Assembly: GCA_003134215.1 (NCBI GenBank)
Contig: PLAD01000222.1
Coordinates: 2,722 to 36,536, forward strand
Direction of reading: 5' to 3'
DNA from: Armatimonadota bacterium
Lineage (GTDB): Bacteria > Armatimonadota > Armatimonadia > Armatimonadales > Capsulimonadaceae
Length of the DNA stretch: 33,815 bases
The notes below the pieces were generated by a model. The model was not told where the DNA came from. It searched no databases and worked only from the letters and a program-made list of their open reading frames with translations. Position 1 is the first letter of the stretch, and every line of letters starts with the position of its first letter. Below, one piece after another: positions 3,376-8,899 of the stretch. The translations under genes were made by a program, and so were the position numbers.

Positions 3376-3708
3376 TCAGCGCCGTCGTCTTCGAGGTTCC
3401 CTGGGCGCAGCATCAGGTTCAGGCAACTTTACAATTTGTCTGTCCAACAGATGCTGTCGTAATTGATCTGCCGTGAAGGGACATTCGATAAAATCTATCA
3501 TTTGCTCCTTCGAAAGGTTGCCAATTTGCTTTTGCCGCATCGAAAGCATACTGTCGTCGAACTGCTTTTCGCCATGACTAGTCCTAGTTCGCACAGATGA
3601 TTTCTTGCCGTCAAGCCAGTACCAGTACATATTATGATGCGTGGGATCTTCTTCGAAGCCCTTTGCTTGCAAAGCTTTCCTGAATTTGTCCGTGTCGTAT
3701 GTGGCCAT
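3376..3708 (-). CDS. HicA-like small protein (putative mRNA interferase toxin)
   Basis: A 110-residue protein. Residues 8-55 follow the HicA double-stranded-RNA-binding-like layout: an N-terminal helix ending in KGF, then T23-H24-H25 where classical HicA has the GSHH catalytic His, a strand segment MYWYWLDGKKSSVRTRT, then S44-H45-G. HicA toxins cleave mRNA and are neutralised by HicB. The protein is longer than classical HicA (about 60 residues), with an extra helical part containing IECPF and an Arg-rich tail. The ATG overlaps the stop of the upstream 356-residue gene by one base (TAATG), so the two are translationally coupled. Similar small proteins with THH...SHG...DD are widespread from memory, often labelled HicA-like; toxicity here is inference. 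Confidence 0.6.
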   Translation of the reverse strand: MATYDTDKFRKALQAKGFEEDPTHHNMYWYWLDGKKSSVRTRTSHGEKQFDDSMLSMRQKQIGNLSKEQMIDFIECPFTADQLRQHLLDRQIVKLPEPDAAPREPRRRRR

Positions 3709-4778
3709 TAGGCGATTTCCTCCACGGCGTCAACATCGTCGTCAATCAGATCCCTAAGGTCAATAGCGTCCTCAGTCAAGTTTTTATCCAACTCGCCAAT
3801 CAGTCCGTCGTAGAGAAAGGCAAATTCCTCATGGAGTTGATACACGGCTTGTTGACGATCTGAAGAAAAGGCGACAATACCGTATTTTGGACATTCGTAG
3901 ACCCAAAGCTCATTTCGATACGCCGGGAAACAACTGACCGGGGCAACTAGCTTAAAACGCCGCTTTTGCCACATGAACGAACCAATATTGAATGGAGAAA
4001 GATCAACTGTTGAAACATCGTATACATCGTCAACCTGCCGTACTGACCCATCGTAATTGAGTTGAACGCTCCCTATGACCTCTACGACTGAACCAGCAAC
4101 CAATTGCGATATCTGTTCTTCCATGTCCGAAGGATACAGACATAGTATTTCCCGAAAGGCATGTCTGACGACAATATGCCGTGAACCAGCCTTTACACGG
4201 ATTTCTACTAAATCACCTACAATTCGTTGAACGTCAGCTTCAGATGAAGAAGATGATAACTCAAAATAATTGCTGATCTGGTGCCTAGTCAGCGGAGTAA
4301 GCACTGCCTTGAAGACACCGGTACCGTTGCCAATAAAGACCGACAAACCTTCATCGTCTCGTGGACACATCTGCTGAAGAGACTTGAGGGTTCTTGCTCT
4401 TCCAACGGAATCTGGCATGAGACGTATAAGCTCATTGTCATTCTTGTTATTAATCGCAGACACTACATTCGGTAAGTCTTGGATGGCCTCAACCCCTAAA
4501 TCGGGCATTCCCGGAAGAACAGGATTGCTGCCAAGTTCCGAAGTTAGCGTAAGGCTTCCGGCTTCCGTCTTGGATAGAAACAGTTCGCACGATGCCCGAA
4601 TATAGCTTGGCCATGTTCCACGTGAAGCCACGCCACTCGTACTCTTCGATAGCGCAAGATTGTATAGCGTGGTCTGGGCAGCACCAAGCTTCGAAGCTAG
4701 GGCAGCGAACGAAATGCGCCCTTCGCTAACGGCTTCACCATCTAATTTAATTGTAAGCGTACGCTCGGTAGTTGCCAT
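3708..4778 (-). CDS. Hypothetical protein with possible C-terminal HicB-like domain; partner of the HicA-like gene
   Basis: A 356-residue soluble protein; I do not recognise a full-length family. The N-terminus begins with a short strand (LTIKLDGEAV) followed by a helix. A Ser-rich linker lies near residue 195. The C-terminal part, roughly 289-345, reads VYECPKYGIVAFSSDRQQAV followed by a helix and a Leu/Asp-rich helix; this strand-turn-strand-helix pattern resembles the partial RNase-H fold of HicB antitoxins. It is encoded first and overlaps the HicA-like gene by one base. In type II modules the first, larger, acidic protein is usually the antitoxin. If so, this one is more than twice the size of ordinary HicB. 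A C-terminal Asp/Glu-rich tail adds to the acidic character. Function inferred from context only. Confidence 0.55.
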   Translation of the reverse strand: MATTERTLTIKLDGEAVSEGRISFAALASKLGAAQTTLYNLALSKSTSGVASRGTWPSYIRASCELFLSKTEAGSLTLTSELGSNPVLPGMPDLGVEAIQDLPNVVSAINNKNDNELIRLMPDSVGRARTLKSLQQMCPRDDEGLSVFIGNGTGVFKAVLTPLTRHQISNYFELSSSSSEADVQRIVGDLVEIRVKAGSRHIVVRHAFREILCLYPSDMEEQISQLVAGSVVEVIGSVQLNYDGSVRQVDDVYDVSTVDLSPFNIGSFMWQKRRFKLVAPVSCFPAYRNELWVYECPKYGIVAFSSDRQQAVYQLHEEFAFLYDGLIGELDKNLTEDAIDLRDLIDDDVDAVEEIA

Positions 4779-4882: not shown

Positions 4883-4946
4883 CTTAGTGCAAGATTTTGA
4901 TAGCCACACCTTATATTCCACGATTGGAGGGCTAGCGCTAGTCAAT

Positions 4947-4965
4947 AATCCCGTTCGGGAATATT
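4947..4965. promoter_or_regulatory. HipB operator-like site O3
   Basis: AATCCCGTTCGGGAATATT, the most symmetric of three related sites upstream of hipB (TCCCG-TT-CGGGA core). HipB-type antitoxins bind such short palindromes to repress their own operon. It lies 110 bases before the hipB start and could also influence the divergent HicB-like gene. Confidence 0.7.
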
Positions 4966-4996
4966 TTTTGAAGTCGCACATCCTTCATCATAAAAT

Positions 4997-5015
4997 AATC
5001 CCTGACGGTAATATT
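4997..5015. promoter_or_regulatory. HipB operator-like site O2
   Basis: AATCCCTGACGGTAATATT shares the TCCC-n4-GG-n-A layout and the AATATT tail with O3 and O1, but its palindrome is weaker. It lies 50 bases downstream of O3, roughly five helical turns. Confidence 0.65.
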
Positions 5016-5036
5016 TAGTTGGTTTTGCCTCTTGAC

Positions 5037-5045
5037 TGGTATAAT
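5037..5045 (+). promoter_or_regulatory. hipBA promoter, extended -10
   Basis: TGGTATAAT (TGn-TATAAT) lies about 30 bases before the hipB ATG. No well-placed -35 element is visible, which suits an extended -10 promoter. The O1 operator starts at the very next base, so a bound HipB would block polymerase. Confidence 0.6.
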
Positions 5046-5064
5046 ATTCCCGTTCGGTAAACAT
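5046..5064. promoter_or_regulatory. HipB operator-like site O1
   Basis: ATTCCCGTTCGGTAAACAT has the same CCCGTTCGG core as O3. It directly abuts the extended -10 element and ends 11 bases before the hipB ATG, the expected place for repression. Confidence 0.7.
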
Positions 5065-5075
5065 TTAACATTACC

Positions 5076-5315
5076 ATGAAATACACTCCCGCACAACTAG
5101 GCAAACTGATACGATCTACCCGCAAGTCGCTCCGAGTGACGCAGGAGCAACTCGCCATGACTGCCGGAACGGGCTTGCGATTCATAATCGACCTCGAAAA
5201 AGGGAAGCCGACGTGCGAAATTGGCAAGGCGCTCACCGTGCTGCAAACCCTCGGTATTGATATGACGTTGGTGCCGCCAAAGAATAGCGTCGAAGGTGAA
5301 GCGGAGGCGCAGTGA
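5076..5315 (+). CDS. hipB: HipB-like antitoxin, HTH (Xre-type) transcriptional regulator
   Basis: A 79-residue protein, normal for HipB. Residues 7-62 form an Xre-type helix-turn-helix: LGKLIRSTRKSLRVTQEQLA then a recognition helix beginning around GLRFIIDLEKGKPT. HipB binds and neutralises the HipA kinase and represses the operon. Three operator-like palindromes lie just upstream. The stop TGA overlaps the start of hipA, so the pair is translationally coupled. The C-terminal tail (VEGEAEAQ) is acidic, as in many HipB proteins. The ATG at 5076 is well placed after the O1 operator. Confidence 0.9.
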   Translation: MKYTPAQLGKLIRSTRKSLRVTQEQLAMTAGTGLRFIIDLEKGKPTCEIGKALTVLQTLGIDMTLVPPKNSVEGEAEAQ

Positions 5316-6559
5316 TGGCTCGAACCCTCGATGTATACCTCCACCATAACCTCGTCGGGCACCTTATCCAGGATGACCACGGCGACATGGTGTTCGATTA
5401 CGCTGAAAGTTGGCTGAGCCGACCGAACGTCATCGCCCTTTCTAACTCACTGCCGCTTCGTGCCGAGCGCTTCGGTCGCAACGAATGCCGTGGCTATTTT
5501 GGCGGTATCCTGCCGGAATCGGATAAGAGGGATATCATCGCCAGAAACCTAGGCATAAGCTCTAAGAACGATTTCGCAATGCTGGAGCGCATCGGCGGCG
5601 AATGCGCCGGTGCGGTGACATTCGTTGCCCCAGGCGAGGATCTGCCTGAGGACCAAGACCGTTACCGCATACTAAGTGGTTCTGAATTGGCGGATATCCT
5701 TCGCTCACTGCCTCGCCGACCGCTCATGGCCGGAGCCGACGATGTTCGCCTTTCGCTGGCAGGTGCGCAGGACAAGATTGCAGTCCGTATCGTCGGCGAC
5801 GAAATATCGATTCCCCTCGGCGGAGCGCCAAGCACCCACATTCTGAAGCCAGCCATCGAGCGGTTTCAAAGTGTCGTTTTCAACGAATCGTTCTGCATGA
5901 CCCTTGCCCAACGAATCGGGCTGCCGGTCGCCCATGTGGAAACAGGCAAGGTTGAGGATATCGATTATCTCGCCGTTAAGCGTTACGACAGGAACTTCAC
6001 GGATGCGGGGACATTGGAGCGGCTTCACCAAGAGGACTTTTGCCAGGCACTCGGGATTGCCTCCGAACAGAAATATCAGAACGAGGGTGGTCCCTCACTT
6101 CAGCAATCCTTCGAACTGGTCCGTGAAACGTCGGCACTGCCTGTCATCGACCTAACGACTTTGCTCGATGGCGTTCTCTTCAACTTCCTAATTGGCAACA
6201 ACGACGCCCATGGCAAGAACTTTTCGCTTCTTCGCACGATTGTAAGCGGGAAGGCCACGATTCGCCTCGCCCCGTTCTATGACCTTCTGAGCACCGCCTT
6301 TTATCCCGAGCTATCAACGAAGATGGCGATGAAGTTCGGCGGCGAGTACGACTCTGAGAAAGTCGTAGCAAAACACTTCGACAGATTCGCCCAAGATGCA
6401 AATCTTGGCAAGGCGATGGTAAAGCGGCGAGTGAAGGAAGAAGTGGAGGCGGTGATATCAACGCTGGCGACGATGCCGGTGGATAGGCAGGTCGCCGATG
6501 ACATCGCCTCGCTCATCCGGCGGCGTTGCGAGAAGACGTTGGTGCGGCTCGGAGATTGA
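5312..6559 (+). CDS. hipA: HipA-like serine/threonine kinase toxin
   Basis: A 415-residue HipA-family kinase. HipA phosphorylates glutamyl-tRNA synthetase in E. coli, halting translation and promoting persistence; the target here is not known. The sequence has an N-terminal subdomain (about 1-110); the autophosphorylation segment RLSLAGAQDK with Ser148; ATP-binding Lys179 in HILKP; the catalytic loop NNDAHGKN with Asp298; and the metal-binding Asp324 in APFYDLLS. All expected catalytic residues are intact. The start is either GTG 5312 or ATG 5315; the ATG (TGATG overlap with hipB) is more likely, giving 414 residues and moving each position down by one. The gene ends convergently 84 bases from the HATPase-type pseudogene. 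Confidence 0.93.
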   Translation: MMARTLDVYLHHNLVGHLIQDDHGDMVFDYAESWLSRPNVIALSNSLPLRAERFGRNECRGYFGGILPESDKRDIIARNLGISSKNDFAMLERIGGECAGAVTFVAPGEDLPEDQDRYRILSGSELADILRSLPRRPLMAGADDVRLSLAGAQDKIAVRIVGDEISIPLGGAPSTHILKPAIERFQSVVFNESFCMTLAQRIGLPVAHVETGKVEDIDYLAVKRYDRNFTDAGTLERLHQEDFCQALGIASEQKYQNEGGPSLQQSFELVRETSALPVIDLTTLLDGVLFNFLIGNNDAHGKNFSLLRTIVSGKATIRLAPFYDLLSTAFYPELSTKMAMKFGGEYDSEKVVAKHFDRFAQDANLGKAMVKRRVKEEVEAVISTLATMPVDRQVADDIASLIRRRCEKTLVRLGD

Positions 6560-6643: not shown

Positions 6644-7590
6644 CTAACGCTGGCGCAGCGTATACACCGCCACCTTAACCCCCGTCCCGCTGATACCATA
6701 AACCGGCTCCGGCAATCCATGCCTACGCATCTCTTCGAACATGCGCCGGATGCCGCCAGTGGATTCCCGAACATATCCAGTCATGTCAGCTAATACACGG
6801 GCGATATGCGGGTTACGGGAATACCGAGCGTTTTGTATGTTCTGAACACGAACCAGCCCCGGTAGCCGACCAAGGCTTTCGACTTCCAGGCGATCCTCGA
6901 AAAGCGTCACCCGAATGCCGTCGCCCTGTAAACTGTAAGAACGGTGCGTCACTGCATTGACGATAGCTTCAAACCAGGCAAACTCGGGGAGAAGCGGGAT
7001 TCGTTCGAAACGACCACCCGGTACTTGGCGAATGACGGAGCCAAGCTTTTCCGCAACTAGTTCCCTTGTGGCGTCAATGATCTGCGGTATAGTTCCTTCG
7101 ATGCGGATGTCTTCAGACAGGTTCGACTGTGTTCCTGTTTCTACGGTCATTCCTCGGTACTGAAGGAAGCGCACATATGACCACACCGGCGTCGTGCGTC
7201 CAAAGAGCAGCCGTCCGGCTTGCGTAACGCCTGTTCGATTGCCGGTGCCGAGGTAAAGTCCACGGCTCCTCAGAAGTGCAGCGGTATCAGTAGCACCGAC
7301 CTTGTGCTTGTAAGCAGCGATAGCTTCGTCATTGAGGTCTTCCAGCGTCAGGTCGTGCACAATCGTTCCATCGCAAATTGACTCGCCCTTGTCGAACGCA
7401 AGGTCCCGCTCTTCGGTCGGCCCGAGCCGCCGGTTTTCGTCGCCGACACGAAGAAAACATTCGTGCTTCTTGTTGCGGTGGATTGCTCACCGGCCTCTTT
7501 ATCGAGCACGAGGATACGGTCATCCTCTCCTTTGTCATTCGTGCAATCGATATAAGCAACTGCATGACTAACGAAGCGTAGAATCGGTAG
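6644..7590 (-). pseudogene. AlbA_2/HATPase_c_4 ATP-binding regulator (COG2865-like), truncated and frameshifted
   Basis: The main frame (stop at 6644, GTG at 7360 a possible internal start) encodes the C-terminal half of a predicted DNA-binding regulator with a GHKL-type ATPase domain: FEAIVNAVTHRSY, DRLEVESLGRLPG and RNPHIARVL are typical of HATPase_c_4. The same frame stays open upstream to about 7485 and reads HECFLRVGDENRRLG, the end of an AlbA_2 (Schlafen-like) domain. A different frame then continues with AVAYIDCTNDKGEDDRILVL to 7590. So at least one frameshift lies near 7478-7490 and the N-terminal two-thirds of AlbA_2 is missing. It is probably a decayed remnant; a short protein from GTG 7360 (238 residues) could still be made. 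Confidence 0.75.
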
Positions 7591-7768: not shown

Positions 7769-7840
7769 GCGGGAGTAGCTCAGTGGTAGAGCACCTGCTT
7801 CCCAAGCAGGGTGTCGCGGGTTCGATCCCCGTCTCCCGCT
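7769..7840 (+). tRNA. tRNA-Gly (anticodon CCC)
   Basis: A 72-base cloverleaf. Acceptor strands GCGGGAG and CTCCCGC pair fully, with discriminator T at 7840 as usual for bacterial glycine tRNAs. The anticodon arm is CCTGC-TTCCCAA-GCAGG, giving anticodon CCC for codon GGG. The T arm is GCGGG-TTCGATC-CCCGT. The 3' CCA is not encoded. Its first 40 bases are repeated in the truncated copy at 1998-2037. Confidence 0.95.
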
Positions 7841-8240: not shown

Positions 8241-8654
8241 TTAAGTGTTCAATACATCGATCTTCTCTGTTCTTGCTGCGGAAATCAGTTCGGCGTCTAG
8301 TGTCGCAAGAGGAAGCGCACGACGAATTGCAAGCTCAAGATAGGCTGCGTCATAGAGGGTCAAACGATGTCGCTCTGCTAGGTCTAAGGTTTCCGTCCAC
8401 GCATGCACATTTGTTTCAGTGTCGATAGATATCGGCAATGACAAGAGATCGGCTAATGTTGCGTCCCGAAAGGCCGCGTCGGTTCTGGCGCGCCGCACTC
8501 CCATTTCGAGAACGTTTGCAACCTCAAGACGCCATAGTCCAGGGACCCATGCGCCCTCTGCTAGCACCTTCTCAAAAACCAAACGGGTACCTGATGTGTT
8601 CTCGTTATTATAGGCCCAAGCTAACGCAATCGAAGCATCAAGGACCAAGCTCAC
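8241..8654 (-). CDS. vapC: VapC-like PIN-domain ribonuclease toxin
   Basis: A 137-residue PIN-domain protein of normal length. The four acidic residues expected in the Mg2+-dependent RNase site are visible: Asp6 in VLDASI, Glu44 in WRLEVANVL, Asp102 in LYDAAYLELA and Asp120 in LATLDAEL. VapC toxins cleave tRNA or rRNA; the target here is unknown. The GTG start overlaps the antitoxin stop by four bases (GTGA), giving coupled translation. It ends 12 bases from the PIN stub on the other strand, so the two modules are back to back. Confidence 0.9.
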   Translation of the reverse strand: MSLVLDASIALAWAYNNENTSGTRLVFEKVLAEGAWVPGLWRLEVANVLEMGVRRARTDAAFRDATLADLLSLPISIDTETNVHAWTETLDLAERHRLTLYDAAYLELAIRRALPLATLDAELISAARTEKIDVLNT

Positions 8655-8899
8655 GGACGACCTTTGTCTCTCTCCGTCTTCAATTCGCTCCAGTTGAAAT
8701 CAACCTTGTTACGCGCCGCCCTTTCTTCAAGTCGCTGTGCCGCAGCGCGCGCCTGCGCACGATCGTTGCCTTCGACATTTGGAACAAGGCGGGCAACTGG
8801 CCGTCCATGGCGTGTGATTATGATTTCCTCTCCTTGTTCGACACGGCTGAGCAGAGATCCCAATGTGTTCTTTGCCTCAAAGGCTCCAATTTCGTGCAC
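8651..8899 (-). CDS. vapB: VapB-type antitoxin, Phd/YefM family
   Basis: An 82-residue protein whose N-terminal half is a Phd/YefM DNA-binding fold: EIGAFEAKNTLGSLLSRVEQ, then GEEIIITRHGRPVARLVP. The C-terminal half is a charged helix that would wrap around VapC. Such antitoxins bind a palindrome in their own promoter and neutralise the toxin. The start is GTG at 8899, preceded by GAGGT at the right distance. A perfect 18-base palindrome lies 17 bases upstream. It is the first gene of the vapBC operon. Confidence 0.9.
   Translation of the reverse strand: MHEIGAFEAKNTLGSLLSRVEQGEEIIITRHGRPVARLVPNVEGNDRAQARAAAQRLEERAARNKVDFNWSELKTERDKGRP

Follow-up and report, generated by a model that had tools for sequence, protein, structure and literature searches.

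The window, a stretch of 33,815 nucleotides from an Armatimonadota metagenome-assembled genome, contains a two-gene module that on its sequence is very probably a member of Class 8 of the HicBA superfamily of type II toxin-antitoxin systems, and the antitoxin of this module carries an N-terminal body that is also found beside PIN nuclease genes and other partners. The hicB-like gene lies upstream of the hicA-like gene (Table 1), and the open reading frames of 356 and 110 aa overlap by one base within the stop/start sequence TAATG at 3706–3710, through which the two genes are likely to be translationally coupled. A preliminary description of this DNA had reported the two reading frames, the overlap at base 3708, the motifs THH (residues 23–25) and SHG (residues 44–46) in the smaller protein, and a location beside hipBA. 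All of these are present as described, with hipB and hipA lying divergently at 5076–5315 and 5312–6559. The source genome consists of 418 contigs, is 87.7% complete, and contains the large gene in one copy.

Table 1. Features of the hicBA locus (positions are those of the window).
Feature	Position	Strand	Description
hicA-like toxin gene	3376–3708	minus	110 aa
Class 8 hicB-like antitoxin gene (putative)	3708–4778	minus	356 aa; precedes hicA
hicB stop codon	3708–3710	minus	base 3708 shared with the hicA start codon (TAATG)
C-terminal HicB-like domain	3729–4007	minus	aa 258–350 (approximate); acidic
OB-fold middle domain	4008–4235	minus	aa 182–257; nearest to the lysyl-tRNA synthetase anticodon-binding domain
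N-domain of HicB	4254–4778	minus	aa 1–175; helix-rich alpha/beta; common to proteins paired with PIN and DUF6932
Three 23-nt repeats	4944–5065	no strand	AATAATCCCGTTCGGGAATATTT type, core TCCCGTTCGGGA, arms TCCCG/CGGGA; 50 and 49 bp apart, upstream of hipB

Direct searches of Pfam, NCBIfam, PADLOC, PHROGs and PDB returned nothing significant for the window proteins, and the small protein alone matched no Pfam family, the HicA_toxin model PF07927 included. Its membership of the HicA superfamily rests on its relatives rather than on a match of its own: PF07927 is matched by 9 of the 12 relatives in an alignment termed A8, the best at 5.6e-5. When a profile of 23 relatives was compared with a profile of ten canonical HicAs (PF07927 matches from related genomes), the match had a probability of 92.6%, an E-value of 4.4e-7 and a score of 42. 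No column shuffle of the HicA profile reached this score (0 of 100, maximum 14.9), and the reversed profile scored 11.7. The histidine at the GSH/GDH position is catalytic in the HicAs that have been studied; His24 falls at this position and is present in all 12 rows of A8 and in 19 of the 23 rows of the wider alignment. Also conserved are Thr41, Ser44-His45, Gln61 and Cys76. The window protein ends in a basic PRRRRR tail, and the net charge ranges from 0 to +8 among the window protein and six relatives. In one relative (L012, 2705–3106, minus strand), the HH motif is replaced by GPD; the presumed catalytic histidine is gone and the pair is kept.

The AlphaFold2 model of the small protein (pLDDT 75) places helices at residues 6–15, 52–61, 67–75 and 80–89 and strands at 18–20, 26–30 and 36–42. 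This predicted alpha-beta-beta-beta-alpha-alpha-alpha order resembles a dsRBD-like fold with two extra C-terminal helices. The model of the 356-aa protein (pLDDT 82) comprises the N-domain, an OB barrel and a strand-rich C-terminal domain, whose relative placement carries modest confidence (pTM 0.49). The HicB-like layout previously assigned to residues 289–345 is borne out by strands at 273–288, 291–296 and 301–305 followed by a helix at 308–327. The profile of this domain matched that of canonical HicB with a probability of 78.9%, an E-value of 1.6e-5 and a score of 31, in an alignment spanning the 'ELWVYECPKYGIVAFSSDRQQAVYQLHEEF' segment; 0 of 100 shuffles reached this score (maximum 13.4). 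The net charge of the C-terminal domain is −10 in the window (residues 258–356) and −8 to −12 in six relatives. Sequence profiles, gene coupling and predicted fold order thus back the HicA-like and HicB-like reading. The structural comparison gave a divided result, the predicted fold order being in agreement but Foldseek recovering no HicA or HicB entry itself. Foldseek with the HicA model found no HicA and nothing significant in the PDB, and in BFVD a lone, insignificant HicA-like match (E 2.5). With the large model, lysyl-tRNA synthetase (LysRS) entries led the list through the OB domain (E 4.4e-4); OB matches dominate, and the first 50 include no HicB fold. When PDB sequences were searched with profiles, neither HicA nor HicB was found and the matches were chance ones only (MecI, 0.08; IF3, 0.38). 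Sub-threshold matches to DUF900 (0.029), DUF1707, GlcD, a type II REase and UvsY were dropped.

The arrangement corresponds to a class described by Gerdes (2024, mBio, PMC10865869). Class 8 HicBs are 331–356 aa long and lack a DNA-binding domain. Of their three domains, the N-terminal one shows similarity to nothing known, the middle one is LysRS-like and the C-terminal one is HicB. Class 8 HicAs are about 95 aa long with two extra C-terminal helices, and hicB precedes hicA, close to it or overlapping (PMC10865869). The window has hicB upstream of an overlapping hicA, a HicB of 356 aa with a LysRS-like middle domain, a HicB-type C-terminal domain and no recognizable DNA-binding domain (a Pfam search found no HTH, RHH or Phd domain), and a HicA with the predicted alpha-beta-beta-beta-alpha core and two C-terminal helices. 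Because all the features of Class 8 that can be tested in sequence are present, the module is best regarded as an added member of the described class; the antitoxin had been called oversized, which is right, but its size is that of Class 8 and not new (PMC10865869). The window HicA differs from the class in its length of 110 aa, due to the basic tail. The N-domain, for which Gerdes found no relatives (PMC10865869), here recurs with other toxin families. With the classical hicAB systems (Classes 3 and 4; PF07927, PF15919) the module shares a dsRBD-like HicA whose histidine occupies the GSH position and the strand-helix HicB antitoxin domain, but the gene order is reversed, there is no HTH or RHH domain, and the antitoxin is roughly three times the size. 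Panacea (PanA, DUF4065; PMC8832971, PMC10440598) is similar in that a single domain on the antitoxin side is combined with many unrelated toxins in bicistronic operons; it is a different family, set apart by name and architecture, and the toxin-specific portion of Class 8 antitoxins forms a C-terminal domain of its own.

The preliminary description had proposed co-occurrence of the two genes as a check, and the small gene abuts or overlaps the downstream end of the large gene in nearly every locus whose contig permits this to be seen. The pair was found in Armatimonadota, Cyanobacteria, Pseudomonadota, Actinomycetota, a Methanocaldococcus virus and a Geminocystis plasmid. When 291 phylum genomes were searched with the large protein, without use of the small protein, relatives were identified in at least 8 genomes other than the source genome. 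In the phylum loci L012–L018 the large gene is followed immediately by a relative of the small gene, and named relatives from the phylum include Chthonomonas and Armatimonadetes metagenome-assembled genomes (L084 and L094, the loci of G145 and G215). A scan of GTDB species genomes added at least 13 loci (Cyanobacteria, Melainabacteria, Thiodictyon, Thermoleophilia and others), and of these named-genome loci, the 10 that retain an intact C-terminal domain all have the small gene as well. Methanocaldococcus fervens tailed virus 1 (L020, 2989–4297) contains a Class 8-like hicBA pair of 333 and 104 aa; both proteins of this archaeal tailed virus are annotated merely as hypothetical. On the 10.4-kb Geminocystis plasmid pGM3709_06 (L021), hicB crosses the start of the record with the small gene downstream; this hicB is missing from the PLSDB gene table, and the product of the plasmid hicA is listed as hypothetical. 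Scans of viral contigs yielded one HicA locus (L022). The HicA profile also matched weakly at L048 and L049 (E near 1e-3), without confirmation that these are genes.

Comparison of the loci supports a domain-based organization of the antitoxin. Partners of HicA relatives consist of the HicB domain alone (L044, 106 aa; L022, 123 aa), of OB and HicB domains (L016, L041), of a HicB domain with other N-terminal parts (L042, L043), or of a Phd/YefM-HicB fusion (L045, Phd at 4e-8), such that the C-terminal domain is the sole antitoxin part that accompanies nearly every HicA relative seen. In the archaeal virus protein, the C-terminal domain has a weak match to the PHD_like antitoxin family (0.0022). 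Locus L044 (2678–5254) has two tandem copies, in which a bare HicB domain and HicA are followed by an open reading frame fusing the HicB domain to a truncated HicA. Broken copies are informative as to which part of hicB goes with hicA. In a degenerate copy from Rhizonema NSF051 (L089, 145–1288), hicB is frameshifted just before the C-terminal domain and hicA matches for only about its first 24 codons, and in L096 both the C-terminal domain and hicA are absent. In L087 and L093 the N-terminal part is split off from hicB and hicA is whole. This pattern, in which hicA is damaged or lost together with the C-terminal domain but kept without the N-terminal part, is expected if the C-terminal domain is the antitoxin. 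It is very improbable that the window pair has itself decayed or lost activity and persists in the island by chance: degenerate copies such as L089 exist, the HicA tail is basic and of low complexity, and the module is single-copy in the genome, but both frames are open and the one-base coupling and key residues are retained.

The N-terminal ~280 residues, previously left unexplained, consist of the N-domain and the OB fold, and this N-OB body recurs with other toxins, whereas the published account is without N-domain relatives. A profile of the N-domain built from Class 8 proteins identified six further proteins in the phylum, and proteins with both N-domain and OB occur also in cyanobacteria and Pseudomonadota, coupled to genes other than hicA. 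PIN nuclease (VapC) genes are partners in L113 and L144 (4-bp overlap in each) and in L149, L150, L151 and L152; the PIN partners scanned, all but that of L151, match Pfam PIN at 1e-11 to 1e-18. The last ~70 residues of the L113 and L144 proteins, past the OB fold, are unlike HicB and presumably resemble a VapB-type tail; a tblastn search of plasmids with the PIN-paired tail found nothing, and one with the N-OB proteins found only the Geminocystis plasmid or nothing. DUF6932 proteins are partners in L115, a second locus in L142, L147, L161 and L162, with matches of 1e-18 to 1e-35; DUF6932 has a nucleotidyltransferase fold (DNA_pol_B_palm at 1e-5 in L162). These five DUF6932/N-OB pairs are themselves candidate nucleotidyltransferase toxin-antitoxin or defense pairs. 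In L110, L114, L145 and L148, an uncharacterized family of 176–256 aa, with no Pfam match in the members scanned, is encoded directly upstream of long N-OB proteins that have a helical N-terminal extension before the N-domain and OB. An N-OB protein in L159 (146–3919) adjoins an HsdM-type N6 DNA methylase, which suggests a restriction-modification or defense setting. The N-OB proteins of L111, L112, L158 and L160 have no identifiable partner, and L146 has a HicB domain with no hicA nearby.

The relationship among these bodies was supported by profile comparison. A profile made from Class 8 alone (Z=1e6) matched L144 at 1.7e-15, L145 at 9e-13, L113 at 5e-11 and L115 at 2e-8, and profile-profile comparison of the Class 8 body with the other N-OB groups gave probabilities of 95–98.5% and scores of 61–111, compared to a maximum of 21 for shuffles. 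The weakest group was that of the cyanobacterial 262-aa PIN-paired proteins (3e-6 to 0.08 for single sequences; E 2.8e-8 for the group). Since the N-OB body is seen beside PIN, DUF6932, the uncharacterized family and HsdM, it has apparently been swapped between several modules that resemble toxin-antitoxin systems. Its sharing with other toxin families appears to be new; we met no description of it in the literature found. It is a tentative but real possibility that N-OB is a promiscuous sensor/antitoxin platform. In this view it would have been joined to three or more toxin types unrelated to one another (HicA RNases, PIN nucleases and DUF6932 nucleotidyltransferases), the inhibitor in each case being C-terminal or specific to the partner, and it would detect a shared trigger, for example phage infection.

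The same neighbors could point to the large protein being the defense effector or regulator itself, its N-domain and OB binding an invader molecule and the HicA-like protein serving as an accessory nuclease. The PADLOC candidate defense protein PDC-M32A weakly and partially matches the N-OB of L088 (1.5e-4) and L113 (2e-4), which favors such a role; the window large protein itself has no PADLOC match. This explanation is quite unlikely, however, as HicA relatives also occur with the bare HicB domain or Phd-HicB in a classical toxin-antitoxin arrangement and loss of hicA goes with damage to the C-terminal domain. The DUF6932 partners match another PADLOC entry, PDC-M63A (8e-12 and 2e-8).

The module is located in an island with other toxin-antitoxin genes. 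The divergent hipB and hipA match HTH_19 (4e-8) and HipA_C (1e-54), and a Phd/YefM antitoxin gene (PF02604, 8e-13) overlaps a PIN toxin gene (PF01850, 9e-9) at 8241–8899 on the minus strand; together with hicBA this gives three toxin-antitoxin pairs within 5.6 kb. Clustering of toxin-antitoxin pairs was also remarked upon by Gerdes (PMC10865869). A tRNA-Gly lies at 7769, and between it and hipA (6644–7360, minus strand) is a 238-aa fragment, perhaps left over from a longer gene, that matches a RecG-like C-terminal domain (HATPase_c_4, 8e-18). The three repeats lie in the intergenic region shared by hicBA and hipBA, and so are upstream of hicBA as well; from their sequence and position they are probably HipB operators. 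These repeats bear on whether N-OB within Class 8 is an autorepressor of the hicBA promoter, taking the place of HTH, RHH or Phd, rather than a sensor. Since Class 8 HicB has no recognizable DNA-binding domain, some other element has to control expression, and the body does hold an OB fold. We consider it unlikely: the repeats sit by hipB and resemble HipB sites, and among the window protein and six relatives the N-domain is near neutral (−4 to +3) and the OB acidic (−5 to −10), its acidity also making general nucleic-acid binding by the OB less likely.

We know of no bench data on Class 8 hicBA, and the following model relies on homology for the action of HicA. The hicB gene would be translated first, with hicA coupled to it through TAATG. 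HicA would act as a translation-independent mRNA-cutting RNase using His24, and the acidic C-terminal domain of HicB would bind and occlude it. The N-OB body would replace the HTH, RHH or Phd part of other HicBs as a portable unit, one found also beside PIN and nucleotidyltransferase genes, and might sense a stress or phage signal, or determine how stable the complex is or how it oligomerizes, leading to release of HicA. We thus infer a portable sensor or regulatory body swapped between modules, with the C-terminus as toxin-specific inhibitor. A role in defense is plausible based on the weak PDC-M32A match and the clustering with hipBA and the Phd/PIN pair.

With this window, Class 8 hicBA gains a member from the Armatimonadota, and a first lead is obtained on the N-terminal body of the class. 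The NetFlax map of promiscuous antitoxins by its own statement missed HicBA, and therefore the N-OB network may have been overlooked. From the comparisons made here, the N-OB body looks like an interchangeable regulator or sensor, and if it does sense a trigger, modules that combine this body with different toxins would be expected to respond to one and the same trigger.
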